Assembly (NCBI GenBank): GCA_024401895.1
Contig: JAKSKE010000017.1
Span: forward strand, 1 to 34,583
Direction: 5' to 3'
Origin: Bacteroidales bacterium
Lineage (GTDB): Bacteria; Bacteroidota; Bacteroidia; Bacteroidales; UBA932
DNA: 34,583 bases
Positions 6,489 through 21,762 of the stretch are shown piece after piece. Every line of letters begins with the position of its first letter. Within the stretch, counting starts at the first letter, position 1. The notes beneath the pieces were generated by a model. It was not told the DNA's origin and did not search any database. It saw only the letters and a list, made by a program, of their open reading frames with translations. The position numbers and the translations under genes were made by a program.

Positions 6489-9260
6489 TTAAAGTGTTCT
6501 CTTGATTTCAATAATATGGAATTCCTCTATGAGGTCTCCCTCCTTAAGGTCGTTGTAGCCGGCTATGCTCATTCCGCATTCCCTTCCGCTTACAACCTCC
6601 TTGGCGGCATCCTTTCCTATCTGCAGGGAGCCCAAGTCTCCCGTGTAGATAACAATGCCGTCGCGGATAAGACGAACCTGGGCCTTAGACACTATCTTGC
6701 CGTCGCGGACAATACATCCGGCAATGGTTCCAACCTTGCTGATCTTGAATGTCTGCTTGATTTCGGCAGTGCCAATAACCTCTTCCTTCTTCTCGGGTTC
6801 GAGCATACCTTCGATACCGTCCTTAACTTCGTCGATGGCGTCGTAGATAATTGAGTAGAGTCGGATTTCAATACCTTCCCTGTCGGCAGCCTTGCGGGCC
6901 TCAACAGTAGGACGCACATTGAATCCAATGATTACGGCATCCGACGCCTCGGCCAGCAGAACGTCCGACTCGGACACTCCACCCACGGCCTTGTGAATTA
7001 CATTCATCTTAACCTCCTCGGTTGAAAGTTTGATGAGAGAGTCTGAGAGGGCCTCGACAGAACCGTCCACGTCGCCCTTCACAATGATATTGAGTTCCTT
7101 GAAGTTGCCTATGGCTATTCTTCGGCCAATCTCTTCGAGAGTCATATGCTTCTGGGTCTTGATGCCCTGGATGCGAAGCAGCTGTTCACGCTTGGAAGCG
7201 ATGCTCTTGGCCTCGCGTTCGTCGGCCATTACGTTGAACTTCTCGCCGGCTGCGGGAGCACCGTTAAGGCCGAGGATGGAAACCGGGGTCGAAGGACCTG
7301 CGGCATCGACCTTCTGCCCGCGTTCGTTGAACATCGACTTTACCTTACCGAAGAAGCTTCCGCAGAGGACAATGTCGCCCTGACGCAAGGTTCCCTCCTG
7401 AACGAGCACCGTTGCAAGGAAACCGCGGCCTTTGTCGAGAGAAGACTCCACAACTGCTCCCAGGGCGGGCTTGTTGGGATTGGCCTTGAGTTCCAAAAGG
7501 TCGGTTTCAAGAAGCACCTTCTCCAGAAGTTTGTCAACGTTCAGACCCTTCTTGGCCGATATCTCCTGGCACTGGTACTTTCCTCCCCAGTCCTCGACCA
7601 GAATATTCATTTCTGAGAGCTGTCGGCGGATAGTGTCGGCATTCGCGCCTTCCTTATCTATCTTGTTGATTGCAAATACCATAGGAACAGATGCGGCCTG
7701 TGCGTGATTGATAGCCTCAACAGTCTGGGGCATCACGGCGTCGTCGGCGGCGACAATGATAATCGCAAGGTCGGTGAGCTGGGCTCCACGGGCTCGCATA
7801 GCGGTAAAGGCTTCGTGACCGGGAGTATCCAGGAATGTAATGCGGCGGCCGTCGGGCATCTTCACATTGTAAGCTCCAATGTGCTGGGTAATTCCACCGG
7901 CCTCGCCCGCAATCACGTTGGTCTTGCGGATATTGTCCAGAAGCGAGGTCTTACCGTGATCTACGTGACCCATAACGGTAATGATAGGCGGTCTGGGCTG
8001 AAGGTCTTCAGGCTTGTCGACCTGCTGGTCGGCGACTATCTCGTTTGTAAGCTCGGCACCCACGAATTCGACTTTGAACCCGAATTCCTCGGCTACCAGA
8101 ACTATAGTCTCGGCATCGAGTCTCTGGTTGATCGAGACCATAAGGCCAAGGCTCATACAAGCTCCTATAATCTTGATTACAGGTATATTCATCATTGTTG
8201 CGAGGTCGTTGGCAGTTACGAACTCGGTAACTTTCAGAATAGACTGCTCGGCTACAATCTGCTGCATCTCCTCCTGAGACTTTGCGGCTGCGGCCTCTCT
8301 CTTTTCCTTGCGGTATTTTGCACCGAAATTGGACTTCTTGCCCTCATTCATTCTGGCATAAGTCTCTTTTACCTGCTTTTGAATCTCCTTCCTCATCTCT
8401 TCCTGCTCGGCTTCGGTAAGTGCAGGTTTGAAGCGGTCTTTGCGCTTCTTGCCACCCTGGCCCTGAGCATTTTGAGACTGAGAATTGTTCTTCTGATTCT
8501 TCTTGGACCTGTCGTGGACCTCAACCTTTGTGACATCCACCTTCTGCGAACCCTTGTTTATGCGCTCGTGCTTCTTGACAGGCTTCTTCTCGAACTGAGA
8601 AAGGTCAATCTTTCCTACCACCTTGAGCTGGCCGCCTTCGGGTTTGGCCTCAACCGCAGGGGCAGGCTTATTCTCGGGCGCAGGGGCTTTCACAGGCTCC
8701 GGCTCGGGTTCCTTAACCTGCTCAACCGCCTTTTCGGGTTCCGGCTCGGACACAGGCTGGGCTGCGGAAACTTGTTCCGGTTCCCTGACGGGCTCGGGTT
8801 CCCTGGCAGGTTCGGGCTCCTTAACGGGCTCCGGTTCCTGAACGGGTTCCGGTTCCTTTACCGGTTCCGGCTCGGGCTGAGGTGCAGGAGCGGGAGCAGG
8901 TGCAGGCTCGGGCGCAGGCTGGGGTGCAGGAGCCGGTGTATCGGGCTGCTTCTTTGCATTGATGAACGTATTGCTCTTTATTACGGTGATGTTTTCGGGT
9001 TCGTCATCGGGCACTTCCTCTTTGACCTTCCGGCCCGACTTCTCCAGAATTTCGTTCATCTTTATATCCACCTTTTCGGCGGCATTCTTCATTTCGAGGT
9101 CCTTGCCAAACTGCTTGGCAATGGCATCCATATATTCGTCGGACACCTTGGCGTTGGGATTCGCCTCAACGTCGGCCCCCTCTTTACGCAGGAAATCGAC
9201 CAAATCCTGCAGGCCAATGTTGTATTGTCTGATAATTCTGTTTAACCTTATATCTGCCAT
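6489..9260 (-). CDS. infB: Translation initiation factor IF-2
   Basis: The 923-residue GTPase delivers initiator fMet-tRNA to the 30S subunit. I start it at the ATG of [16 protein letters not shown] (9260), the conserved Bacteroidota N-terminus; the frame continues 25 codons upstream into the end of nusA but that stretch is not conserved in character. An N-terminal helical domain is followed by a proline/glutamate-rich linker of EPEPVK-like repeats (about 107-205), a lysine-rich segment, and a second IF2_N domain. The G domain begins near residue 425 with GHVDHGKT, then [14 protein letters not shown] and NKID, followed by the beta-barrel and C-terminal fMet-tRNA-binding domains. It lies 16 bp after nusA. 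Confidence 0.97.
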
Positions 9261-9276
9261 ATATAATCTATTGGAA

Positions 9277-10542
9277 TCAGTCTTCGAATTCTGCCTTAAA
9301 GATAGAGAGTATTTCAGCGACGGTTTCGTCTTCAAGGTCGGCGCGTTTGGCTATATCCTCGGCGCTGATTGCAAGCACGTCGCGAGCGGTGTCGCAACCT
9401 ATGGATTTGAGCTTTTCAATAATCCAGTCATCTATAACATCATTGAAATCTTCGATAGCAACGTCATCTTCCTCCTGTTCATCGGCACCATTGGCATATT
9501 CGCGCCAAACCTCGATTTCACGGCCGATAAGCATTCCGGCGAGTTTGATGTTCACACCGCCGTGCCCGATTCCCTTGCTTACTTCGTCGGGATTCATAAA
9601 CACCTTCACCTTGTCTTCGGGGTTCTGTCCCAGATTTACGGAAGATACCTTTGCGGGGGCAAGAGCGCGGCCTATCATAAGAACCGGATTGCTAGTCCAC
9701 TGAATAACGTCTATGTTCTCGTTGTGAAGTTCCCTCACGATTCCGCTAATTCGGCTTCCTTTAACGCCGATGCAGGCTCCGATAGGATCGATTCTGTCGT
9801 CGTAGGATTCTACGGCCACCTTCGAACGCTCACCGGGAACGCGAACCACCTTCTTGACGGTAATGAGCCCGTCGGCGATTTCGGGAACCTCCTGCTCGAA
9901 GAGTTTCTCCAGGAAATCTTCGGATGTACGGCTGAGGGTGATGTAGGGAGTGGTGTTCCTCAACTCTACGCTCTTTATGATTGCGCGCACTTCGTCATTC
10001 TTCTTGAATCGCTCGCCGGGAATCTGTTCATTCTTGGGGATATGCAGTTCGTTTCCGTCCTCGTCCAGAATGAGAATTTCCTTGGCCCAGGTCTGGTAAA
10101 CCTCACCGCGGAAGAGTTCGCCCACTTTCTCGGAATATTTCTTGAAAAGGTTGGCTTTCTCCAAATCCATAATGCGTCCCTGAAGATTCTGACGGATATT
10201 CAGGATTCCACGGCGTCCGAAAGCCGAAAGGGGAAGTTTCTTGGAGTAGCTGTCGCCTATTTCATAGTCGGAATCGCCGCTGTCGGCAGTAACCTGCTCC
10301 AGTGTCATTTGGGAGTTTGGATCCTCTACTTCTTCTACAATCTCGAAGTTCTGGTAGATTTCACAGGTTCCTTTATCGACATTTACAATGACGTCGAAAT
10401 TATTGGAATCGCCATAGGTCTTGGCTATCTGTGAAAGGAATACGTCCTTAAGCACGCCCATCATCACCGGGCGGTCGATGTTCTTTTCCTCCTTAAAGTC
10501 TTTGAAAGCATCAATAAGGGTGTTTGCTTGTTCTTTCTGCAT
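9277..10542 (-). CDS. nusA: Transcription termination/antitermination factor NusA
   Basis: This 421-residue protein has the NusA order: N-terminal RNA polymerase-binding domain (about 1-130), S1 domain (about 135-200), then two KH domains containing [14 protein letters not shown] and the [15 protein letters not shown] motif. A helix-hairpin-helix-like acidic C-terminal tail (about 370-421) follows, shorter than the two AR repeats of E. coli. It starts 6 bp after rimP and precedes infB by 16 bp, the classic rimP-nusA-infB order. Because NusA stimulates hairpin-dependent pausing and termination, the hairpin in the operon leader (10829-10854) may make it autoregulatory; that is inference. Confidence 0.96.
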
Positions 10543-10997: not shown

Positions 10998-11028
10998 CTC
11001 GTCAACTGCAATTTGCTTCGGCAGGTCA
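10998..11028. repeat. Partial second copy of the structured repeat
   Basis: CTCGTCAACT-GCAATTTGCTTCGGCA repeats the inner core of the preceding element in direct orientation, one base different in the spacer, but without its own closing arm. It overlaps the stop codon (11026-11028) of the last gene of the neighbouring locus, so the final codons may have been replaced by the repeat. Confidence 0.65.
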
Positions 11029-12402
11029 GATTTCGATAACGGACTTTATGCCGTCCCGGTTCATCATTATGCGGAAACATTTGTAGCACTCCTTCCCGCC
11101 CTCCTTATACTGGAGAACAATGTTCATAAAATAATCCTTCTCGCAGGGAATCATAGCAATATTCCCGTCCGGTTCCAGATACCCCACCTTCTTCACCGGA
11201 TTGTCGGCCTTGCGCAGGAACCCCTGCACCTGAAGCCGAATGATGTCGTTGATTCCCTCGTGCCTGTAGGTCGAGACTTCCGCCAGAGCCTTACGGTCTA
11301 TTTTAACCATCTCCCGGTAGAGCATAACGCTCTCGTCTTCGGCCAGGCCGATAAAGCCCGAATCGACCTTACGCTCACGCAGTTCCCGCACCTCGCGGGG
11401 CACCTTGCTGCGCTTGACAAAGTCCATACCCTCCTTCATAATGCCTATGGTCCGATTCCGGTGGCGTATCTCGGCTTTATTGTCGAAATATTTGCTCCCC
11501 ACCCTGTGCGAGAAATAAAACCGCATAAGTTCCTTGATGCGGTCCTTAAGCATATAACTTATGATAAGTGCAAGAAAGAGAGGCCAGGTAAGGTTGCCGA
11601 ACTGCCGCTGGAACGCCCAGGCCACAACAGTGGCGAAAAGCATAGCCATACCGGCAGCCACGCTGTAATATGCCTGCTCGGCAAGAAAGCCGTCCCTGGT
11701 CTTGGGAACACTCAAATAAAGCTGTTCCTCGGAATACTTTTTAACCACTCCGTGGCGGAATATATATTCCCTGTTGGATTCGGGATCCCCGGGAACAACG
11801 GTAATATATCCGCGTTTCGCGCGGATGGCAGATATTTCCCCCAGAAGGGCCGAGAGTTCAGAGCGGCACTCCCCCATACGCATAACCTTGAAAACAGCCT
11901 CGGCCGACACATTGCACAGGAACTCACCGCAGAGCCGGTATGCCTCTTCCCACCGGGGTTCGGGATTCAGCGCCTGATACCGGGCGAGTATTGCACTCAG
12001 GCGGGATATGAAATCGAGGCAGCTTTCCCTTCGGGCCGGACCGGGAGCGGTCCGCGCCATTGCCAGATACGCCTCCCGCACCGAACTCTTGACAATGGAA
12101 ACAAACATCTTGAGCTGGTAGTCGTAATCGCCACCGGCATTCAGTAGGCTGTTGAGCGGCAATGCGTCGCCTTCCACTATCTCGCCCAGGTCGAAACGGG
12201 GCGTTATGAGACGGATGTTGGACTTGAAATAGCGGTAAAAGGCTTTCTTGGTATAGGTTTCGGGATTTATGTCCAGACTTGCAGGCACAAAGACCCACAT
12301 TCCCAGAAGGAAGTCGTCCCCGCTGGAAATCTCCTTTGTGACAAAGCCCACCTTAAACTCTACGGTGTACCTGTCGTGAATCTTTGCGTCTATCTCTATC
12401 AT
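11026..12402 (-). CDS. Conserved two-TM protein of unknown function
   Basis: I do not recognise a named family for this 458-residue protein. It has no signal peptide. The N-terminal half (1-240) is soluble and mixed alpha/beta, with an acidic motif DFLLGMWVFVP and an alanine/arginine-rich helical stretch (about 105-195). Two adjacent hydrophobic helices (about 245-264 and 271-286) are followed by the charged motif SYMLKDRIKEL and a soluble C-terminal domain with a possible short-bridged Cys pair (ECYKCF). Both soluble parts would lie on the same side of the membrane, most simply the cytoplasm. It starts 3 bp after the SLC13 carrier stop, so it is very likely translated from the same mRNA; its stop codon lies inside a repeat copy. 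Confidence 0.8.
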   Translation of the reverse strand: MIEIDAKIHDRYTVEFKVGFVTKEISSGDDFLLGMWVFVPASLDINPETYTKKAFYRYFKSNIRLITPRFDLGEIVEGDALPLNSLLNAGGDYDYQLKMFVSIVKSSVREAYLAMARTAPGPARRESCLDFISRLSAILARYQALNPEPRWEEAYRLCGEFLCNVSAEAVFKVMRMGECRSELSALLGEISAIRAKRGYITVVPGDPESNREYIFRHGVVKKYSEEQLYLSVPKTRDGFLAEQAYYSVAAGMAMLFATVVAWAFQRQFGNLTWPLFLALIISYMLKDRIKELMRFYFSHRVGSKYFDNKAEIRHRNRTIGIMKEGMDFVKRSKVPREVRELRERKVDSGFIGLAEDESVMLYREMVKIDRKALAEVSTYRHEGINDIIRLQVQGFLRKADNPVKKVGYLEPDGNIAMIPCEKDYFMNIVLQYKEGGKECYKCFRIMMNRDGIKSVIEI

Positions 12403-12405
12403 ATC

Positions 12406-13998
12406 CTAAAACAGTCCCGGAGTAATTCCCATCCACTTGAGGACAGTCATTCCCCATACCAGAATGAGCAGCCAGGAGAAGGTCATCATAGTGATACCAT
12501 ATTTAAAGGCGTCGGTCTGGCTGTACTGGTTCGTATTGTAAAGCAGAGCCGCCGGCTTGCTGTTGAACGGAAGCACATACACGTGCTCGATAAGCATAGC
12601 CACAGGCAGCGCAATGCTCATTGGAGGGAATCCGAAACGCGTTTCCACACCAAGGGCTATGGGTACGAACACCATTGTGCGTATGGTCTTGCTCTGAAAT
12701 ACCAGTCCCGAATACATCATTAGGAAGGTAAGGATTACATAGAGCACCCAGAACGGTGTGCCGTTGGTTATTCCCATTGCGTCGAACGCGGCATTGACCA
12801 TAGTGTTTGGGAGGTCGGTGGCATTGAGCCCGCTGCCCAGAGTATAGGCACCGGCACTGAAGAGCATAAGGTGCCAGGGAATGTCCACGTCATTCCACTT
12901 CACTACCCCTATTCCCGGAATGAGGGCCAGAACCGCGCCTATGAGAGCGACTATGGTTTCGTCTATGTTATGGAACGTTCCTTTCGTAACCCAGAGCACC
13001 AGCACCAGCACGAAGATTCCCACAGCCTTCCATTCTTCGGCGGTCATCTTCCCCATTGCATCAAGTTCCTGCTTAAGCCTTTCGAGCCCGCCATCTATGC
13101 TGGGCTTCTGCTCTTCCTTTTTCATAGGGAAGAAAACGTACATTCCGAGCAGAAGGCCAACCACCAGAATTATCACGCTCATAGGGCCCACAGAAAAGAG
13201 CCACTGCGAATAACCGAAGTCACAGCTGCCGAGATAACCCATAATGAGGGAAATGGCCAGCAGGTGCGCACCCGAGCCGGTATAGAATGCATTGGCGCCT
13301 ATATTTACCTGGAAAAGATTCTGAATCACGAGGTTGCGCCCAAAATTATTACGGTTGCCGTTGGATGCCCCGTAAATTGCACACACCACCATAAAGATAG
13401 GCAGCATAATGGTAGCCTTCACTGTGGTGGCGGAGATAAAAGCCGAAAGTATGAGGTTTATGAGCAGAAAGCTCCAGAGCACTCCCTTAGCCGACTTCCC
13501 GAACCTGATTACGAAGGCCAGGGCCAGTCTTTTTGCAAACTGAGTCTTCACCAGCATACTCGCAAGTACGAAACTCAGGATATTCAGCCACATTACCGGA
13601 TGTCCAAGCTGAGCGAGGGCTTCCTTCTGCGTGGTGACATTCAGCAGAACTACGGCAAGTATAACCAGAAGCGAGGTGAGATAGTTGGGAATGGCTTCGG
13701 TCATCCAGAGAATGAGGCTGGAGACAAAAATCGCCAGCATAGCGTAGCAGGCACGGGTAAAACCGGCTGCGCCCAGCACGCCCAAACGCTTGGCCGCGGC
13801 CGCGGCAAGTCCGTCGGGATTCATATTGTCTATGAAGTCTATGTGGCTGAACCAGCATATCCACACAAAGACAATCAGGGCAACGGGGCCTCCAAGACGC
13901 GCCATCCAGGTCTCAAAACCAGATTTTTTCATCTTCGGGAGTTTGTCTGCCCTATAGTTGCTCATATCGAGCGGATCGAATGACATTCCTGTAGCCAT
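12406..13998 (-). CDS. SLC13/DASS-family anion:sodium symporter
   Basis: This 530-residue inner-membrane protein has about 12 hydrophobic segments and the two-half inverted arrangement of the divalent anion:sodium symporters. The two substrate/sodium-binding hairpins that usually carry Ser-Asn-Thr are diverged: the first reads ISATTVKATIMLP (Ser189-Thr192), the second VFQSKTIRTMVFVP (Gln435-Thr438). The ATEAIPNYLTSLL-like TEAIPNYLTSLLV motif near residue 100 and the SAGAYTLGSGL stretch near 381 are family-like. DASS members carry dicarboxylates, sulfate or, in yeast Pho87/90/91, phosphate; which anion is used here cannot be read off. It lies 4 bp after the SdiA-regulated-type gene and 3 bp before the two-TM protein. 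Confidence 0.9.
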   Translation of the reverse strand: MATGMSFDPLDMSNYRADKLPKMKKSGFETWMARLGGPVALIVFVWICWFSHIDFIDNMNPDGLAAAAAKRLGVLGAAGFTRACYAMLAIFVSSLILWMTEAIPNYLTSLLVILAVVLLNVTTQKEALAQLGHPVMWLNILSFVLASMLVKTQFAKRLALAFVIRFGKSAKGVLWSFLLINLILSAFISATTVKATIMLPIFMVVCAIYGASNGNRNNFGRNLVIQNLFQVNIGANAFYTGSGAHLLAISLIMGYLGSCDFGYSQWLFSVGPMSVIILVVGLLLGMYVFFPMKKEEQKPSIDGGLERLKQELDAMGKMTAEEWKAVGIFVLVLVLWVTKGTFHNIDETIVALIGAVLALIPGIGVVKWNDVDIPWHLMLFSAGAYTLGSGLNATDLPNTMVNAAFDAMGITNGTPFWVLYVILTFLMMYSGLVFQSKTIRTMVFVPIALGVETRFGFPPMSIALPVAMLIEHVYVLPFNSKPAALLYNTNQYSQTDAFKYGITMMTFSWLLILVWGMTVLKWMGITPGLF

Positions 13999-14002
13999 AG
14001 CA

Positions 14003-14809
14003 CTAAAGTTCTATTTTGATTCTGTACAATTTCGAAGTCTTGTCGCAGCCCACCCAGACCGTTCCCTGTGCGTGGTCAACGGCCAGCCCTTCGGCCTGCT
14101 CTACAAAAGGTATATGGTATGTGGCAATGAGAGTCCCCTCAAGGGTGCAATGGTAAAATGCCGGACCCTTGCTGTCTATCACCCACATAGTGTTGTCGGT
14201 CGAATCATAGCACAGGTCGGAAATGTTCTTGGTCACAAATTTTATGTCAAACCAGCCTTCCGTTTTGTCCTGAGCCATATTGTATTTTACAATGCGCGTG
14301 GGCTGGGCCTGATTGCCTACGTAAACCAGGCTGTTCACACACATTATCCCTTCCGGACCCTTCCCCGAAGCGCCCCCGCCGGGAACATCGATTTTGGCAA
14401 CCTCCGAAAGCCTGTCGCCCGAAAGTTTGTAAATTGTGCTTTCGGTTTCCTCCATAAGGAGAAGGTCGTTGCCGAGGCAGTCCACTCCCTCCCAGTCGTG
14501 TCCGCCTTTTCTCATAAGTGTTTTACGGGTTTTGCCGTCGAAGCCTATTTCATAGACTTCTCCCTCGTCACCCACTGCATACAGGCCGTCCTTCTTCTGA
14601 TTCAGGCACAAACCCGACAACTCCCCCACTTCGGTGGCAAACGATTCGTAAACGGTAACGGTATAGTCTTTTGCCGTCGCAGGGGTTTCCTGCCGCTCCT
14701 GTTCTTCGGGAGTGACGACGTATGCTTTGTCTGCCAGACAGCCGCAGCATACGAACACTGCGGCTGCCATTACAGACAAACAAATGATTTTTGAATTGAT
14801 TATTTCCAA
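14003..14809 (-). CDS. SdiA-regulated-type beta-propeller lipoprotein
   Basis: The 268-residue product shows repeated beta-propeller blades typical of the SdiA-regulated family (GELSGLCLNQKKDGLYAVGD, DWEGVDCLGNDLLLME, GPEGIMCVNSLVYVGNQ, QAEGLAVDHAQGTVWVGCD). These proteins have a fold related to phytase-like propellers; their biochemical role is unproven. A lipoprotein signal ends in VFVCCGC, with Cys22 or Cys24 lipidated. The start is a TTG at 14809, overlapping the CYTH gene by 10 bp; the first ATG (14770) would leave a signal without its basic residue Lys7, so I prefer TTG. It should sit on the outer membrane or be surface exposed. Confidence 0.82.
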   Translation of the reverse strand: MEIINSKIICLSVMAAAVFVCCGCLADKAYVVTPEEQERQETPATAKDYTVTVYESFATEVGELSGLCLNQKKDGLYAVGDEGEVYEIGFDGKTRKTLMRKGGHDWEGVDCLGNDLLLMEETESTIYKLSGDRLSEVAKIDVPGGGASGKGPEGIMCVNSLVYVGNQAQPTRIVKYNMAQDKTEGWFDIKFVTKNISDLCYDSTDNTMWVIDSKGPAFYHCTLEGTLIATYHIPFVEQAEGLAVDHAQGTVWVGCDKTSKLYRIKIEL

Positions 14810-15279
14810 TTCTTGTAAGGATTTTTCATCAACATTGAATTGAAGTACTTGGGATCACCGGTAACCTCCTCGCCAAGCCAGGCAGGTTTGTCGAAAGGCT
14901 CGTTCTCGTCGGTAAGTTCGACCTCGGCAACGGTAAGTCCGTCATTGTCGCCATAGAACTCATCCACCTCCCAGGTGTGAACCCCGTCGGTGTTCTTTAC
15001 AAGATAACGGGTCTTGTCAATGACTCCGGGCTCGGCAATCTCGAGAAGCTGCTGAACCTCTTCTGCGGGTATTTCCTTCTCCCACTCGAAACGGGCCGCG
15101 CCTGAAGCATTGCCGATTCCCTTAATGGTAATGAATCCTTTTTCGCCCTTTACGCGTACACGCACCGTTCTCTCGGGCACCGAACTCAGATAGCCCTGCG
15201 TGATGCGGGTGGCCTTGAAAGCTTCATTCTTGAAGCAGTCGCATTTGACCAAAAATTTCTTTTCTATTTCCTGTGCCAT
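14800..15279 (-). CDS. CYTH-domain (triphosphate tunnel) protein, putative inorganic triphosphatase
   Basis: This 159-residue cytoplasmic protein carries the CYTH signature: ExExK as Glu4-Ile-Glu6-Lys-Lys8, paired arginines Arg40/Arg42 in RTVRVRVKG, Lys54 of FITIKG, Glu65/Glu67 in FEWEKEI, Lys89/Arg91 in IDKTRYLV, Asp106 in EVDEFYG and Glu119/Glu121 in AEVELTDE. Those residues line the tunnel that binds metal-triphosphate. Short stand-alone bacterial CYTH proteins studied so far mostly hydrolyse inorganic tripolyphosphate, and adenylate cyclase activity is rare. Length is normal. It lies 3 bp after a second, more divergent CYTH-like gene and overlaps the propeller lipoprotein gene. Confidence 0.92.
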   Translation of the reverse strand: MAQEIEKKFLVKCDCFKNEAFKATRITQGYLSSVPERTVRVRVKGEKGFITIKGIGNASGAARFEWEKEIPAEEVQQLLEIAEPGVIDKTRYLVKNTDGVHTWEVDEFYGDNDGLTVAEVELTDENEPFDKPAWLGEEVTGDPKYFNSMLMKNPYKNWK

Positions 15280-15282
15280 AGT

Positions 15283-15927
15283 CTATTCGTTTGCAAGGGG
15301 TTTGTCGGACATACCTATCACACGCTTGATGGCCTGGAGGTAATTGATATTTTCCACTCCTTCGAGACCAACGTCGGCGATAGTCTTCTTTATATCTTCA
15401 ATCTCTGTCGATTCAGAGTTAATGGTAACGACCTTTGCACCGTTGATGAGCACGTTGCCCACCTCGCAGATAGTGTCGTTGACCATATAGCCGAAGCGCT
15501 GCTTGTGTACGCGCACTGCGGCCAGGTCGGGATTGGCCTTGACCATAGCTATGAATTCGTCATAAGTGTACTCGTCCTTCGTGAGAGCGGGCATCTCTAC
15601 CATAAATGCAGGGAACACTTCCTTCTCCAGGACCTCGCGGCCGATGGGGAATTCCCCCTTCATAAGAGGATTCCACTGCTCCAGTCCGTCAACTGTCTGA
15701 ACATAGGTCTTTATGTCCATCTTTCCGTTGCGGATTTTGGTGTTGTTGATGTCGTTCTTATTTGAGATGATGTAGATTTCGTCGCTTTCCCTCTCCCAAA
15801 CCTTCTCGGGCACTGGAGCTGAAAGACGTGCCATTCTTTTATGAGCTTCGCAGAAGCACTGGCCGAAACTGCGGAATTCGAAGCGAGGCTTGCTGATCTC
15901 GCCGATTTTCATTTCTTCTTTTGCCAT
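15283..15927 (-). CDS. Divergent CYTH-like protein (probable)
   Basis: This 214-residue cytoplasmic protein has no certain family name, but its strand pattern follows the CYTH tunnel fold: FEFRSFG near residue 16 at the position of ExExK, TKIRNGKMDIKTY (63-75) matching the paired basic and TxK strands, GLEQWNPLMKGEFPI (81-95), VRVHKQRFGYMVNDTICEVGNVLI (138-161) matching the KxR and ExD strands, and SESTEIEDI (171-179) matching the ExE strand, then NINYLQAIKRVIG. The first acidic residues are not a canonical ExExK, so catalysis may differ or be lost. It is 19 bp after the lamin-tail gene and 3 bp before the standard CYTH gene, which supports a paired function. The assignment is by eye and needs a profile search. 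Confidence 0.6.
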   Translation of the reverse strand: MAKEEMKIGEISKPRFEFRSFGQCFCEAHKRMARLSAPVPEKVWERESDEIYIISNKNDINNTKIRNGKMDIKTYVQTVDGLEQWNPLMKGEFPIGREVLEKEVFPAFMVEMPALTKDEYTYDEFIAMVKANPDLAAVRVHKQRFGYMVNDTICEVGNVLINGAKVVTINSESTEIEDIKKTIADVGLEGVENINYLQAIKRVIGMSDKPLANE

Positions 15928-15946
15928 ATTTCTTATTCTAAATCAA

Positions 15947-18172
15947 TTATTCCTGTTCAATGTCTCCGGTCTTCTCGCCGTTTTCGGCTCCCTTGGTAGG
16001 AGCTGCATAAGCCCACTCGCCGGTTCCATTGGGTACGCGACTGAATGAAGCGGTCTTATTCTCGGGAAGAGTTGTCTCACCCCATCCGGCTTCGCCTGCC
16101 TGTCCGCGCTCGAATTTGTCTATTTCGTTGCCGGCAGCATCCTTCAGAATAATTTGGACGCTCTTCTTGGCAGAAATTCCGCCGCTGAAGATTTGTGCTC
16201 CCTCGGGATTGTCGGTATTCTTTGAGCTGAAGAGTACAAGATACTCGCCGGCAGCAAGTTCGATGCCTTCACCGGTCCATACTGCGGCTTCGCCGGCATC
16301 CTTGAACAGAGCATAGCCGTCCAAAGAAATGCTTCCGGTAGTGCCCACATTGAAAAGTTCGATGAATTTGGAATTACCGTCAATCTCGTTCAGGACAATA
16401 GCACAGTCGTTCTGCTCAATCTCTCCGGTCTTCTCGCCGTTCTCGGCTCCGGGTGTGGGAGCGGCATAAGCCCAGTCGCCGGTTCCATTGGGTACGCGGC
16501 TGAATGATGCATCTGCATTTTCAGGAAGTTCGGTTTCTCCCCAGCCTGCTTCGCCGGCCTCGCCACGCTCGAATTTGTCAAGTTCTTTGCCGTCCTTGTC
16601 AAGAAGGATGACCTGAACGGTCTTGCCGGCTGAAAGTCCTGAGCTTACCTGCTTGGGATCCGTTGATTTCTTTACGCAGTCAAGCTTGAGGTACGCGCCT
16701 GCGGCAAGTTTAAGCTGACTTTCGTCGGTTGCCACCCACTTGACTTCGCCGTCCTTCACGATCTGATAGCCGGTAATGTCCGCGTCGGCGTCTCCCGCAT
16801 TGAAAAGCTCGATATATTTGTCGTTGCCGTTAATCTCGTTCAGGACAACCAGGGCTTCGCCCGTCACGGGCTCCTCTCCTTCAACTATTCCTTTGGCATT
16901 GCTCTCGCCTATTGAACCGGTAGAGAACACAACCCACTCGCTGCCACCGTCGGTGCGCAGACCGTAGGTCTTGCCAGTAAGGTCGATCTTTGCAGAATTG
17001 TCGGCGGTATGAACGCTGCCCTTGTCCGATATGAGCTCGATTACAAAACCCTTGGTCTCGGACATTCCGAATGTGGGGCCTGCAACACCGTCGCTCTTGA
17101 CGGGAATTATAATAAAGCCCTTGGCGGCAACCTTGAAACCTTCGTCGGGAACAATCCATTCGTCGGTACCATCTTTTACCATCTTGAGCTTCGCGAGGTC
17201 TATTTCACTGTTTGTAGCATTGTAGATCTCAAATTTCTTGTTGGTTGCATCGCACTCGTTCACAAAAATCTGACCGGCCTCGATCTGAGAACCAACCTCT
17301 GGATCTACGGGGTCTACCGGATCAACGGGATCAACCGGCTGCTCGCCTTCGACCAGGCCGGGAACCAGTTCTGTTCCCTGAACGTTCTCTGTGCCGGGAG
17401 TACCTTCTGCGAAATACCACTTTCCGTCCTTGTTGCGGCTGTATGCTGCAGGAGCGGCGGTCTTGAAATCCTTCAGGTTAAAGTCGTCGATGCTCTTGCC
17501 GCTGGGGTCAAAAAGCTGAACGCGCACAGCTTTACCTGCAGACAGGCCGCTGTCGAAGAGAAGATCTTCGGGCCATCCGGCAGGAATCTTGTCTACTTTC
17601 TCGGAGCTGTACAGCACAACAAACTCACCTGGCTTGATAGAGGTGACAGAGGTGAGGGCAACACTTTCGCGAGGCCAGTTCTTGCCACCGTCTTTCTCGA
17701 TATAAACTCCGTCCAGAGGAATCTCCTCGGTGCCCTTGTTGGCGAGCTCGATATACTTGTCGTTACCGTTGAGCTCACTCAGAATAAGGCCGCTGTAGTT
17801 GATGGGAGTAGCGCCTACGACATACTTCACAACATTTGATCTCACACTGGACGACTCAGTGGCAGCTTCAACGTAGTAGCTCACCTCGGTATCGAGCGGC
17901 TGAGCCGGGATCTTGCCCATCCAGGTTCCGTTTGCCTCAACCATAGGAACAGGGGTCCCCTGTGAGCGGGGATTGGTTGTCCATACAAGTTTAACCTCCT
18001 TGACAGGAACAAGAGCAGATACTTTTGCGGTAACGGTTACCGCGTCGTTGGCAGTGTATGCCACGGTGTTTTTCACCTCGTCAATGGAAGCCCCACCATA
18101 CATCTGGTCCTTTATGCAGGACGTAAAGAGGATGGGCATTGCCATTGCAATTAATGCAAATATCCTTTTCAT
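15947..18172 (-). CDS. Lipoprotein with four lamin-tail domains
   Basis: The 741-residue product begins with a lipoprotein signal (lipobox LFTSC, Cys19). An Ig-like domain follows (about 35-118, ending in VSYYVEAATESSS), then four lamin-tail-type repeats: 125-266, 298-430, 437-588 and 590-741. Repeats 1, 3 and 4 carry the hallmark LNEIxGNxKYIELFN; repeat 2 is more diverged. A VDP-repeat linker (279-292) separates the first two. Such domains in Bacteroidota are extracellular and often accompany nucleases, phosphoesterases or adhesins, but no enzymatic domain is present here. It probably faces the cell surface as a scaffold or ligand binder. It is 24 bp after the porin gene. Confidence 0.9.
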   Translation of the reverse strand: MKRIFALIAMAMPILFTSCIKDQMYGGASIDEVKNTVAYTANDAVTVTAKVSALVPVKEVKLVWTTNPRSQGTPVPMVEANGTWMGKIPAQPLDTEVSYYVEAATESSSVRSNVVKYVVGATPINYSGLILSELNGNDKYIELANKGTEEIPLDGVYIEKDGGKNWPRESVALTSVTSIKPGEFVVLYSSEKVDKIPAGWPEDLLFDSGLSAGKAVRVQLFDPSGKSIDDFNLKDFKTAAPAAYSRNKDGKWYFAEGTPGTENVQGTELVPGLVEGEQPVDPVDPVDPVDPEVGSQIEAGQIFVNECDATNKKFEIYNATNSEIDLAKLKMVKDGTDEWIVPDEGFKVAAKGFIIIPVKSDGVAGPTFGMSETKGFVIELISDKGSVHTADNSAKIDLTGKTYGLRTDGGSEWVVFSTGSIGESNAKGIVEGEEPVTGEALVVLNEINGNDKYIELFNAGDADADITGYQIVKDGEVKWVATDESQLKLAAGAYLKLDCVKKSTDPKQVSSGLSAGKTVQVILLDKDGKELDKFERGEAGEAGWGETELPENADASFSRVPNGTGDWAYAAPTPGAENGEKTGEIEQNDCAIVLNEIDGNSKFIELFNVGTTGSISLDGYALFKDAGEAAVWTGEGIELAAGEYLVLFSSKNTDNPEGAQIFSGGISAKKSVQIILKDAAGNEIDKFERGQAGEAGWGETTLPENKTASFSRVPNGTGEWAYAAPTKGAENGEKTGDIEQE
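15950..16120. repeat. Internal direct repeat, copy encoding end of lamin-tail domain 4
   Basis: This stretch closely matches 16409-16579 at the DNA level. Both encode DKFERG-AGEAGWGET-LPEN followed by SFSRVPNGTG-WAYAAPT and the ENGEKTG-IEQ ending. Confidence 0.8.
16409..16579. repeat. Internal direct repeat, copy encoding end of lamin-tail domain 3
   Basis: Partner of 15950-16120. The high DNA similarity including silent positions indicates a recent duplication or gene conversion within the lamin-tail gene. Confidence 0.8.
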
Positions 18173-18196
18173 ATAAATCGCTGATTAAAATTCATA

Positions 18197-19570
18197 CTAG
18201 AATGCAACCTGGAAACGCATTGCGATCATAGAATAGTCCACTCCACCCTTTCCTGAAGGTTCGGTAGCCTTGGTATAATCCTTTGTAGGCTTGCCCGATG
18301 CATCGGTTCCGATGAAGAGCTTGCCCTTTCCGTTTGCATAGCGGTCGTTGTTATTGTACTGATAGTTGAGCACAATCTTCACGTGCTTGCTGGGATAGTA
18401 GTTGAATCCTATTGAATATGCGTCGCAAGCTCCGCCGAAATAGTTGGCGGTGTTGAGGTCGGCATTTTCATAGCGCAGACAGAGCTCGAGGTCTCCCCAT
18501 TTCTTGCCTGAATCGATACGGGTAGGCTTGGCACCGTCGGAATCGTAGTTCTGGCTTCCGCCGAAGAGCAGATAAGAAGCCTGCACATACCAACCCTTAA
18601 CCCACTGGGGTCCAAGAGGATTAACCTTCTGGTCGAGGAATGCTCCGCGAGCCATATATGCGGCCTCATAACGCAGGCCCTTGTAGAATCCGGCGAGCTC
18701 GGCTGTCCAGGCCAGTTCGTGATGAAGACCGGAAATTCCGTCGGTATCGAGGAACTTCTTACGGTTGATGTTGGTGGTGTTGCGGGTGCTGTAACGGGCA
18801 ACTGCATAGCCGTCGGTACCGGTAAGCTTGGGCTGCCTGTAAGAGAATGCGCCGCCTATGTGAAGCATTGCTTCCTGCGATTTGTAAAGCGGGCGGAAAG
18901 CGATTTTTCCTGTGTAAGACAGACCTTCGCTGCGTCCGAAGTCCTTGTTGTTGTCTTCCATTGCGGTCTGCTCCTCAGAACCCTTGAGTTCGGGACCGAA
19001 AACGCCGGCTGAAACCCAGAACCAGTCTTTTGCATACCTTGCATTGATTCCAAGATGGCGGGAAGGAGCCACTGCACTTACAATCATAGGACGCTCCATA
19101 AACATAAGGTAGCGGGATGTCGTGTTTCTCTGGATAGAGAAAGACTCCTTGAAGTTACCGGCTTTGATCTCGAGTCCCTTCACGCCCGTAAAGGCTACGA
19201 GAGCATCCTTGATTTCACATATACCGCTGGACCAGTCGGTATCGAATTCACCGTACCAGTTCTTGTCCAGCTGAGCCTTTACGGCAAAACGGGCGCGACG
19301 GATGCTGGCACCGTTACCAATGGGGGCGGCATAAGAGGGAGCCCCGAAGAAAACGGCGGCATCGCCCTGAACACGGACGTCAAACCACATCTTATAGTCG
19401 AGCTTCTTGGCCTGGAATACCAGGATTCCATCCTGAATCACAGCCTGGGCCGGAGTGGAAACAACCTCCTGTCCATACTGGTTATACTCAACTTCTGCCT
19501 TGTCGGCAATCTGTGCCGCAAGGGGAAGTGCGAATGCTATCGCAACTGAGAGTAATAATAATTTTTTCAT
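18197..19570 (-). CDS. OprO/OprP-type anion-selective porin
   Basis: The 457-residue protein has a cleaved Sec signal (MKKLLLLSVAIAFALPLAAQ) and ends in the beta-barrel C-terminal signature MRFQVAF. The internal pattern IRRARFAVKAQLDKNWYGEFDTDWSSG, then GLEIKAGNFKESFSIQRNTTSRYLMFMERP and HLGINARY, is characteristic of the phosphate-selective porin OprO/OprP family (16-strand trimers in Pseudomonas). Family members favour phosphate or pyrophosphate, but Bacteroidota homologues vary and the basic-ladder residues cannot be aligned by eye. It lies 32 bp downstream of the PhoU-like regulator gene on the same strand and 24 bp before the lamin-tail gene. Confidence 0.88.
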   Translation of the reverse strand: MKKLLLLSVAIAFALPLAAQIADKAEVEYNQYGQEVVSTPAQAVIQDGILVFQAKKLDYKMWFDVRVQGDAAVFFGAPSYAAPIGNGASIRRARFAVKAQLDKNWYGEFDTDWSSGICEIKDALVAFTGVKGLEIKAGNFKESFSIQRNTTSRYLMFMERPMIVSAVAPSRHLGINARYAKDWFWVSAGVFGPELKGSEEQTAMEDNNKDFGRSEGLSYTGKIAFRPLYKSQEAMLHIGGAFSYRQPKLTGTDGYAVARYSTRNTTNINRKKFLDTDGISGLHHELAWTAELAGFYKGLRYEAAYMARGAFLDQKVNPLGPQWVKGWYVQASYLLFGGSQNYDSDGAKPTRIDSGKKWGDLELCLRYENADLNTANYFGGACDAYSIGFNYYPSKHVKIVLNYQYNNNDRYANGKGKLFIGTDASGKPTKDYTKATEPSGKGGVDYSMIAMRFQVAF

Positions 19571-19602
19571 ACAACCTGAATTAAAAGTTTATAAAATGTT
19601 GC

Positions 19603-21006
19603 CTATATGCTTTTTATGAAATCGGTCAACTTCACGTCCCGGCTGAGGCCCATCTTGGTTCTCATTCTGTGCCGTTCAATTTCCACGCTTTTGGGTGATA
19701 TGTTGAGCAAACCCGCAATGTACTTTGTAGAGAAGTCCAGCCTGAGCAAAGTGGCAAGTTTGCGTTCCTGTGCCGTAAGTTCGGGAAACTTGGCCGCAAG
19801 CCGCACCGAAAAATCCTGATGAAGCTGCTCTACCTGAGCGTAAAAGTCATTCTTTTCGCCGGTGGCGTTGCGTCTGAGGCCCAGCTGCACCTTCAAATCG
19901 TGTAACAGTTTCTCTCTTTCGGCATTGTCGGAAGTAGACTCCGCCTGCAGGATTCCGTCGTAAATGGTATCTATGAACTGCCGCTGCTCGGTGATTTTCT
20001 CAACCACTCCGGTCGTCTCCCGTCGCTTGAGTTCAAGCAGATTCTGAAGATGGTCGTTCTCCATCTTGGTAATCTGCACTTCCATCTCTGACAGTTTGCG
20101 GTTGCTGTTGTTAATCTCGTCTTCCTGAGCCGAAAACCTTCGGCTTGAATCGCGCTGTGCCCTTCGGTTGCGCATCACGTAGATGATAAGCACCGAAAGC
20201 AGAAGCAGGGACAGGACAGAAAGGGCGGCCACCAGACCGAAACCCTTGTCGGAAAAGCCGAAGTGCCCCCGGCCGATGAGCATCACCGGGGCTACTACCA
20301 TCATCGCCACCGCCACTATCTCCAGGGCCGGCAAGAACCATTTTGTCCAAGCCCTTGAAGAGAGGGACTGATACCTGATGTACATTACCGACAACTGGTC
20401 GGCAACTTTCGAAGCCTGAAGAGCAAGCTCCTCGATATGGAGGGCGAAGTATCGCAAATGCACCTTCTCGCTCAGTTTCAGGGAATCCATCTCGTGGAAA
20501 ACCTTTCTTTTCAAGGCTTTTGATTCGCGGTCGGCTTCTTTCTGATAGAAGTAAACGCGACGCACCTTGTCCGGAACCGCTTCTGGAGAACGGAAGAACG
20601 TCTTTGCAGCCGGTATTGTAGTAGCGACAGCCCTGGTCGAAAGATTCATCAGCTTAAGGAAATCGGAATTGAGCTCGGCAGGAACGTTGGGGCGCTCAAT
20701 ATCAAACTGGAAAAGATCTTTGCTGAGCATATCTACAATATGCTGCATTCTCTCAAGAAGTCGCAGCACGTCGGAATTCATATAGATTTCGTTTCTGTAC
20801 AGAGATTCCTCAATGTTCCTCTGAAGCTGAATGGCCTCATTCTCCAGTTTGACCATAGTCTGCAGGCTCTCGCTCACTGCTGCAGTGTTGCGGTGCAGAT
20901 AATTGCGCACGCCCTCTTCGAACACGAGCAGAGACTGGTCTTCAATGTCAAAGAACTTGTCAAGCTTGGCAACAGTCTGCCTTGCCTTGCGGTTTGAAAA
21001 TTTCAT
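19603..21006 (-). CDS. Membrane-anchored LuxR-type regulator with N-terminal PhoU-like/DUF47 domain
   Basis: The 467-residue protein combines four parts. Residues 1-212 form two all-helical repeats that match the PhoU-like DUF47 pattern of phosphate-transport accessory proteins: LENEAIQLQRNIEESLY (54-70), SDVLRLLERMQHIVDMLSKD (78-97), KEADRESKALKRKVF (156-170) and HIEELALQASKVADQL (190-205). Two TM helices follow (about 224-245 and 256-277), then a coiled coil (about 285-345), then a LuxR-type helix-turn-helix (408-465: LTAQERKLATLLRL, STKYIAGLLNISPKSVEIERHRMRTKMGL). Both ends should be cytoplasmic. There is no receiver domain. It is first in the transcript before an OprO/P-type porin, 32 bp away, so it may activate that locus in response to phosphate state. 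The DUF47 call is by eye. Confidence 0.82.
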   Translation of the reverse strand: MKFSNRKARQTVAKLDKFFDIEDQSLLVFEEGVRNYLHRNTAAVSESLQTMVKLENEAIQLQRNIEESLYRNEIYMNSDVLRLLERMQHIVDMLSKDLFQFDIERPNVPAELNSDFLKLMNLSTRAVATTIPAAKTFFRSPEAVPDKVRRVYFYQKEADRESKALKRKVFHEMDSLKLSEKVHLRYFALHIEELALQASKVADQLSVMYIRYQSLSSRAWTKWFLPALEIVAVAMMVVAPVMLIGRGHFGFSDKGFGLVAALSVLSLLLLSVLIIYVMRNRRAQRDSSRRFSAQEDEINNSNRKLSEMEVQITKMENDHLQNLLELKRRETTGVVEKITEQRQFIDTIYDGILQAESTSDNAEREKLLHDLKVQLGLRRNATGEKNDFYAQVEQLHQDFSVRLAAKFPELTAQERKLATLLRLDFSTKYIAGLLNISPKSVEIERHRMRTKMGLSRDVKLTDFIKSI

Positions 21007-21019
21007 AACACTCTTAATG

Positions 21020-21027
21020 CAAATATA
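21020..21027 (-). promoter_or_regulatory. Candidate -7 box of the regulator-porin locus
   Basis: TATATTTG on the minus strand (21027-21020) matches the consensus exactly; a T run about 19 bp upstream (near 21046-21050) could serve as the -33 element. The predicted start of transcription is only about 7 nt before the ATG, giving a nearly leaderless mRNA. Confidence 0.55.
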
Positions 21028-21130
21028 ACTATATGTATGGTCAATAAAAATCCAATGCCTGTAAAGTTATGAATTTAGCATCATATTGTCAAGTTTGTTA
21101 AGTTTAATAATTAATTATTATTCAATAAAA

Positions 21131-21169
21131 TAGAGAAACTCGGTAAAGTTCAGGAAGAATTTTACCGAG
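21131..21169 (-). terminator. Hairpin downstream of wbqC, probable terminator
   Basis: Read on the minus strand, CTCGGTAAA (21169-21161) and TTTACCGAG (21147-21139) form a perfect 9-bp stem with a 13-nt loop, followed by a T-rich tract. It starts 27 bp after the wbqC stop and separates the lpx cluster from the regulator promoter. Confidence 0.55.
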
Positions 21170-21195
21170 CTAATACTAATTTTATGTAAAGTTTT

Positions 21196-21762
21196 TTAAA
21201 ACAGATTTACAGCATTAGGACCTTCGTTGAAGAGCAAATCCATAACAGAAAGACCGGGCACGAAGCCGAATTTATGCGAAAACACCTGATAATACTCCTG
21301 CCCTTTATAAGCCGACTCCACCTTCGGGGAAATGACGTGCTCCTCTCCTATAAATGAAGTGGTAGGCAGGAACTCCACCGCCAGTCCCAGCTTGAGGGCA
21401 AACAGTCTAATGAGCTCCATATTGAGATCCCAGAGTCTCTGGGGATGTGAATCCAGCACGGCGAACACTGCGTCTTTATAGTATTCGAAAAACGGAGAGC
21501 TGTCGTAGGCCGAGCTTATAGCGCGCTGGGTCTTTACAACCCAGGGAGTACTGTAATCGACCTTAATGTCGGTGATGAGAGAACTGCCGTCGTGTATTAT
21601 GGGGAAGTTAAGGTCGAGTTTCCCATTTGCCGACAATATTGTACAGCGGTTGCGATAGGTTTGCTTGCGGTAGCTCTCGTGAGCCTCCAGAAAAACAGTT
21701 GAGTTCTGCGCCGCAATGGCAAAGAACTCAACTGTAGGAAAATATTCTGTGCTTAGAACCAC
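21196..21762 (-). CDS. WbqC-family protein
   Basis: This 188-residue protein matches the WbqC family (YFPTVEFFAIAAQNSTVFLEAHESYRKQTYRNRCTIL near the start, then VKTQRAISSAYDSSPFFEYYKD). The family occurs in O-antigen and glycan clusters and widely in Bacteroidota; its biochemical role is not settled. It starts with GTG, whose G is the last base of the lpxA stop TAG, so translation is probably coupled. It is the last gene of the lpx cluster and is followed by a terminator-like hairpin. Confidence 0.82.
   Translation of the reverse strand: MVLSTEYFPTVEFFAIAAQNSTVFLEAHESYRKQTYRNRCTILSANGKLDLNFPIIHDGSSLITDIKVDYSTPWVVKTQRAISSAYDSSPFFEYYKDAVFAVLDSHPQRLWDLNMELIRLFALKLGLAVEFLPTTSFIGEEHVISPKVESAYKGQEYYQVFSHKFGFVPGLSVMDLLFNEGPNAVNLF

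Follow-up and report, generated by a model that had tools for sequence, protein, structure and literature searches.

A Pit transporter and a DUF47 accessory protein make up a two-gene phosphate uptake module. How, then, did a DUF47 domain come to be joined to a DNA-binding domain, and what would such a protein sense and control? The question is raised by a gene in the window analysed here, by which we mean the whole stretch of 34,583 nucleotides from contig JAKSKE010000017.1 of a Bacteroidales bacterium, where a single open reading frame encodes both (Table 1). A sequence-only reading of this DNA had proposed that the product would be a one-component phosphate-state sensor held at the membrane. 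That interpretation holds in its form, but it overlooked a two-gene ancestor, the existence of transporter::LuxR fusions, a transporter that was apparently lost in steps, and a motif upstream of the gene; of wider import is the lineage of transporter::LuxR proteins and their reduction. Its further remark, that no described example was known to it, agrees with the literature searched (most subscription papers and all preprints lie outside it), where no description of a DUF47::LuxR architecture was found among the papers listed.

Domain architecture of the fusion protein

Both ends of the protein are recognised by Pfam. The PF01865 (PhoU_div) match covers residues 9-210 (E 3.2e-8, 33.6 bits against a cut-off of 24.4) and the PF00196 (GerE) match residues 410-462 (E 2.4e-7, 30.7 bits against a cut-off of 23.5). 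Together with the two TM helices predicted between them, these matches bear out the proposed union of DUF47 with a membrane-bound LuxR-type domain, and the profile check of residues 1-212 against PhoU and DUF47 that had been suggested gave a significant PF01865 match rather than none. The gathering cut-off of PF01865 is also passed by two relatives, L072 and L077. Neither an autoinducer-binding domain nor a receiver domain is among the 11 Pfam families matched by the window protein at E <= 1, and the PHO4 domain (PF01384) is absent from its Pfam matches.

The DUF47 domain is a diverged one, as judged by the NCBIfam DUF47-type model TIGR00153, with which the window protein stays below the curated cut-off (26.4 against 104.3 bits). 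The patterns on which the domain had been recognised by eye, KEADRE and HIEELALQASKVADQL, do align with two acidic stretches that generic DUF47 proteins have, although the window protein has diverged at these columns. In an alignment comparison, TPFDREDI, an empirical mark of the generic DUF47 members of the order that was taken from the rows compared, is present in six of seven generic rows as against none of the 13 rows of the operon-type subfamily to which the window protein belongs, so that the ligand of the operon type may differ from that of other DUF47 proteins. A same-genus DUF47 protein encoded outside the operon (L063 in genome G270, about 9018-9677, + strand) has neither TPFDREDI nor the HLRYFALHIE of the operon type. 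When a profile of 15 DUF47 members was searched against the PDB, the top matches were weak (2iiu/2olt, a hypothetical protein, E 0.0075; the PhoU-like 3l39, E 0.019), and the remaining matches among the top ten were designed or unrelated helical proteins.

Table 1. Features of the fusion gene, its upstream region and its operon in the window, and loci with an intact transporter::LuxR protein in relatives (positions without a locus name refer to the window)
Feature	Position	Strand	Basis
DUF47::2TM::helical linker::LuxR fusion protein (P0001), 467 aa, ATG start	19603..21006	-	single ORF, Pfam
DUF47/PhoU_div domain, residues 9-210, diverged operon-type subfamily with HLRYFALHIE	20377..20982	-	Pfam PF01865, subfamily comparison
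Two predicted TM helices, residues 227-245 and 257-275	20182..20328	-	simple hydropathy scan
Conserved polar helical linker, about residues 285-405, presumed dimerising coiled coil	19792..20154	-	conservation with partner proteins
LuxR/GerE HTH, residues 410-462	19621..19779	-	Pfam PF00196
Operator-like motif copy AACTTTACA	21060..21068	-	
Operator-like motif copy AACTTAACA	21096..21104	-	
Operator-like motif copy AACTTTACA	21185..21193	-	
Porin_O_P outer-membrane porin, next operon gene, order kept in relatives	18197..19570	-	PF07396 E 1.4e-36
Secreted/lipoprotein-like protein with lamin tail domains	15947..18172	-	PF00932 E 1.2e-41
214-aa conserved protein, operon marker	15283..15927	-	no Pfam match under E 0.1
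CYTH-domain protein	14800..15279	-	PF01928 E 4.6e-14
SdiA-regulated/phytase-like protein, in some relatives	14003..14809	-	PF06977 E 1.1e-14; PF13449 below cut-off
DASS-family Na+-coupled divalent anion symporter	12406..13998	-	PF00939 E 6e-54; TIGR00785 over cut-off
458-aa conserved protein, last of conserved block in many relatives	11026..12402	-	no Pfam match at E <= 0.001
Intact PHO4/Pit-type transporter and LuxR HTH, single ORF beside DUF47	L122:10278-12029		
Intact PHO4/Pit-type transporter and LuxR HTH, single ORF beside DUF47	L140:10652-12403		
Intact PHO4/Pit-type transporter and LuxR HTH, single ORF beside DUF47	L143:10637-12385		
Intact PHO4/Pit-type transporter and LuxR HTH, single ORF beside DUF47	L144:10651-12390		
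Intact PHO4/Pit-type transporter and LuxR HTH, single ORF beside DUF47	L065:9915-11663		BLAST
Intact PHO4/Pit-type transporter and LuxR HTH, single ORF beside DUF47	L070:7754-9499	-	BLAST

The other genes of the operon are listed in Table 1. The 214-aa protein is 86-98% identical across the same-genus neighbourhoods that hold it, as against only 46-63% for the DUF47 protein of the same operon; in genome G079 a diverged paralogue adjoins it (L048:6129-6785, - strand, 39.5% over 197 aa). A relationship of the 214-aa or the 458-aa protein to the CYTH protein was considered, and profile comparison gave no link.

The fusion and the gene pair in other genomes

A search of 400 genomes of the genus with the window protein gave matches in 137 at E <= 0.001 and in 93 at 1e-50 or better; among the matches listed, the similarity in the weaker-matching genomes lies in the LuxR part. 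The full-length fusion is also found in G310 (L072, 89% identity) and in G407 (L077, 57-59%), the copy in G274 (L054) is truncated where its contig begins, and a shorter fusion is present in G043 (L033/L080). Because other assemblies hold the same fusion, it is neither a product of chance nor an assembly error. Five genomes thus carry it, and the porin is the next gene in all four whose contig extends that far. In the DUF47 plus C-terminus tree, built with a quick method, the five fusions (window, L072, L077, L080 and L054) form one group with an SH-aLRT of 97, L054 being represented by a short DUF47 stretch only and L080 by a long branch. In the G043 gene (L033:9180-10148, L080:9965-10933) a DUF47 domain is joined to the HTH in 322 aa that contain no predicted TM helix, and this protein is probably a soluble member of the fusion clade.

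Such shortening could mean that a broken transporter::LuxR gene is decaying here and that the fusion regulates nothing. The membrane part is indeed less constrained, with a dN/dS of 0.24 between the window and L072, and one member is without any predicted TM helix. However, the ratios for the DUF47 domain (0.026), the linker (residues 290-405; 0.035) and the HTH (residues 406-467; 0.012), rough as they are with dS at about 0.9-1.9 and near saturation, indicate that purifying selection acts strongly on DUF47 and HTH, and the recurrence of the fusion beside its porin also speaks against decay, which makes a functionless relic very improbable.

The fusions are accompanied by a two-gene form. Among 40 stretches retrieved, 33 hold an operon-type DUF47 (28 gene pairs, four fusions and one stand-alone transporter) and seven do not, and the partner in the 28 paired stretches is a protein of 414-590 aa whose C-terminus consists of the same linker and LuxR domain. 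When named genomes were scanned, the yield was 485 pattern matches and 337 relatives; of the latter, the best 80 by likeness to the window were kept: 73 are gene pairs, three are fused, and four are without a recognised partner, their contigs stopping 224-827 bp past DUF47. In each of the 73 pairs the DUF47 gene is followed, in the same operon slot, by a membrane protein with a C-terminal LuxR domain, at a spacing of -74 to +52 bp. The survey of other Bacteroidota that the sequence-only reading had called for has therefore yielded the fusion itself in further assemblies and, in most of the best 80 loci, a gene pair of DUF47 and LuxR proteins. The nearest names among these 80 of the 337 are Candidatus Cryptobacteroides fimicaballi (93% over DUF47) and horse-faecal Bacteroidales, and the system is also present in Bacteroidales bacterium CF, in Cloacibacterium rupense and in one Chitinophagales MAG.

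A possible route from a Pit-type transporter to a remnant

The partner proteins can be arranged in a series with a transporter at one end. In another family of the order (L047), the slot after DUF47 is occupied by a stand-alone Pit-type transporter, and at six loci an intact transporter and a LuxR HTH share one open reading frame (Table 1). Four of these proteins (L122, L140, L143 and L144) pass the Pfam cut-offs of both PHO4 (PF01384; 177-224 bits) and LuxR. Of the other partner proteins, set against the PHO4 cut-off of 33.7 bits, L127 (43.2; the diverged Pit-type::LuxR protein that Cloacibacterium rupense carries with its DUF47) and L103 (36.4) still score above, P0002 (23.1) and P0008 (9.3) fall below, and PHO4 is not among the Pfam matches of L089 at E <= 0.001 or of P0004-P0007 at E <= 1.

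At the level of profiles, 6L85, a phosphate transporter of solved structure, is matched by the six intact transporter::LuxR proteins at E 3.5e-34 and by 30 partners, four of them intact, at 8e-18; the degenerate sister clade alone gives the same match at E 0.0088, and the 7-TM forms alone gave no transporter match in the PDB profile search. Profile comparisons that span the shared C-terminus were set aside, and only membrane-only runs bear on the transporter part. In these hhalign runs, one link is found between the degenerate clade and the intact forms (97.5%, E 5e-12) and a second between the degenerate clade and the 7-TM forms (96%, E 5e-9), whereas the direct comparison of the 7-TM forms with the intact forms is not significant (1.7%), so that the kinship of the 7-TM forms to transporters runs through the degenerate clade. 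By hydropathy, 8-11 TM helices are predicted in most partners, seven in L081, L084, L086 and L092, two in the fusions of the window, L072 and L054, and none in L080; L077 has three, one of which is a marginal segment within DUF47. In an alignment read by eye, the two helices of the window protein fall on the final helix of the transporter and on the anchor helix in the transporter::LuxR relatives.

The transporter part is degenerate in Candidatus Cryptobacteroides and in some other groups. In Candidatus Cryptobacteroides it has apparently also been shortened afterwards, and one clade, to which the window belongs, has its DUF47 fused to the LuxR part; as read from the tree, the order of loss would have been decay, shortening and fusion. 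We lean slightly towards regarding the whole series as a class of Bacteroidota proteins in which a transporter has become a one-component transcription factor: a PHO4-family anion transporter fused to LuxR, with DUF47 as its signalling partner, would have been lost step by step in one Cryptobacteroides clade, where DUF47 became joined to the output domain. What is left there would be a minimal transcription factor for anion status, soluble in one member.

An operator-like motif upstream of the operon

Three copies of an operator-like motif precede the fusion gene (Table 1), and similar words recur in relatives. Within at most 300 bp before DUF47 at 76 loci (five of 81 with too little upstream sequence were omitted), CTCTACA is present at 55 loci where dinucleotide shuffles predict 1.2, and CTTWACA has 34 forward sites against 5.5 expected (six against 3.5 on the opposite strand); these words were chosen post hoc among the most enriched, and the counts are not independent since many of the loci are close kin. 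Most copies lie on one strand, frequently 11 or about 44 bp apart. The -7 promoter consensus of Bacteroidales is TAnnTTTG, and TATATTTG, located just before the start codon (window 21020-21027, - strand), fits it; as a -7 element, it would place the motif copies upstream of the promoter. Scans for promoter-like and terminator-like sequences over 12300-21400 stayed at chance level or slightly above it (9 against 7.9 and 13 against 9.0 expected, respectively).

Pho boxes are direct repeats, and dimers of the LuxR type usually bind inverted repeats. The spacing of the copies on one strand is like that of Pho boxes, and a different regulator, for instance a PhoB-type response regulator, may be the one that uses the motif, with the fused LuxR protein acting elsewhere in the genome. 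The PhoRB system of B. fragilis is reported to affect Porin_O genes (PMC3547664), which would fit such an assignment. AACTTWACA occurs 35 times in the window's genome against 22 times for a reversed control pattern, and sites elsewhere in this genome are therefore possible. However, three of the 35 sites lie within 134 bp upstream of the fusion gene, and no second such cluster is found among the 35. The perfect 11-bp CTCTACA tandem also points to the operon, as its one copy in seven operon-bearing genomes is upstream of the operon in G016, a weak test given that the other six have no perfect tandem even at their own operon.

A further argument for the fused protein as the binder comes from the recognition helix, where the loci carry His or Tyr at a position that corresponds to a base-contacting residue of NarL. 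In 72 loci, CTTW and CTC sites number 28 and two with His, against six and 113 with Tyr. The 57 Tyr loci include four with only CTT or CTA forms and three without the motif, and the 15 His loci two with CTC beside a CTT copy, one with only a CTA form and one without the motif. This match of an HTH residue to a motif base is suggestive only, because the residue changes just twice on the tree, and a test of independence of the covariation was not significant. We consider another regulator of these sites unlikely, and the fused LuxR protein itself is preferred as the one that would bind them.

Phosphate or sulfate as the presumed anion signal

Phosphate is the likely signal, ahead of sulfate, and is favoured because DUF47, Porin_O_P, CYTH and the phytase-like protein all point to phosphorus. 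In Flavobacterium, nucleases with lamin tail domains have been reported to be up on phosphate depletion and OprP not (PMC8115612). Judged by profile score, few genomes of the genus seem to have the classical Pst uptake system: PstB exceeds its cut-off (343.2 bits) in 4 of 121 genomes, with four more at 297-316 bits, and among the matches listed none of the four positive genomes has an operon-type DUF47. In the window's own genome, which is 76% complete, the best PstB match reaches 239.9 bits against the same cut-off, no PHO4 match was found, and a 571-aa protein with a PhoU domain is present.

The same architecture might instead sense sulfate or another divalent oxyanion, the ancestral transporter half being a CysP-like member of the PiT family. 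The operon encodes a DASS symporter, and sulfate carriers are counted among DASS members (PMC5840216). The seven operon transporters all score higher with the NCBIfam CysP model (47-87 bits, cut-off 400) than with PitA (at most 26 bits), unlike the five transporters beside generic DUF47 genes (PitA 96-138, CysP 58-76 bits), but the CysP scores are far under the cut-off and overlap those of the generic transporters, and it is only the low PitA score that distinguishes the operon type. In all six intact fusions aligned, the second Asp of the GANDVANA signature, which is reported to be essential for phosphate transport, is replaced by Asn; the first Asp is nevertheless kept in all six, whereas CysP of B. 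subtilis is reported to have lost both (PMC5840216). The suggestion of phosphorus given by the neighbouring genes, and the absence of any match to a sulfur assimilation enzyme among the window genes scanned, also weigh against sulfate, which we regard as an improbable ligand, and phosphate is retained in what follows.

A proposed mechanism and its known counterparts

In our preferred reading, to which we give a probability of roughly 0.58 from the comparative evidence above, the fusion protein would be a one-component regulator of its own anion-uptake operon that derives from a transporter-based two-gene module and senses an oxyanion, most likely phosphate. Its cytoplasmic DUF47 domain would sense the intracellular state of the inorganic oxyanion, the hairpin of two membrane helices would anchor the protein at the inner membrane, and the helical linker, presumably dimerising, would relay the signal from DUF47 to the HTH. 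The LuxR-type HTH would in turn bind the AACTTWACA repeats in front of its own gene and thereby set, in one direction or the other, the expression of the porin, the DASS anion symporter and the associated proteins. The ancestor would have been a two-gene module in which a DUF47 protein was paired with a Pit-type transporter that carried a LuxR domain. Along the Cryptobacteroides lineage, this transporter would first have decayed to a sensor or scaffold, presumably incapable of transport, most of which would then have been deleted, joining DUF47 directly to the LuxR part.

Several known systems resemble this protein in part. Pit/DUF47 modules likewise place a DUF47 gene beside the gene of a PHO4-family transporter, both in the generic form present here and in the operon form of L047; they differ in that the transporter slot of the operon form mostly includes a LuxR HTH, and in that the window has no such transporter, the HTH being carried by the DUF47 protein itself. 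The BT3442 family (NCBIfam NF053779) resembles residues 262-455 of the window protein at 27 bits, but this is far under its 940-bit cut-off and covers only those residues. In CbrA and the SLC5-histidine kinases, a transporter domain is also fused to a signalling output, with a debate on transport versus sensing, but CbrA combines SLC5 with a histidine kinase output, whereas PHO4 is combined here with a DNA-binding domain (PMC8871633). CadC with LysP, and the ToxR family, offer the example of a transcription factor held in the membrane and of sensing through a transporter partner; CadC has an N-terminal winged HTH and a periplasmic sensor, whereas the LuxR HTH here is C-terminal and the DUF47 domain presumably cytoplasmic (PMC5936718).

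Significance

Intact transporter::LuxR proteins, degenerate and shortened forms, two-helix fusions and a membrane-less fusion all persist at one and the same operon position. Transporters turned sensors are known mostly as endpoints; here all stages persist in related genomes, and the route from a transporter to a transcription factor can therefore be reconstructed and tested step by step. The fusion also offers a way into the question of DUF47/PhoU-type sensing, as the output of the DUF47 domain would be transcription and could be read with a reporter. Gut Bacteroidales without a recognised Pst system may track the supply of phosphate or sulfate by means of such a regulator.
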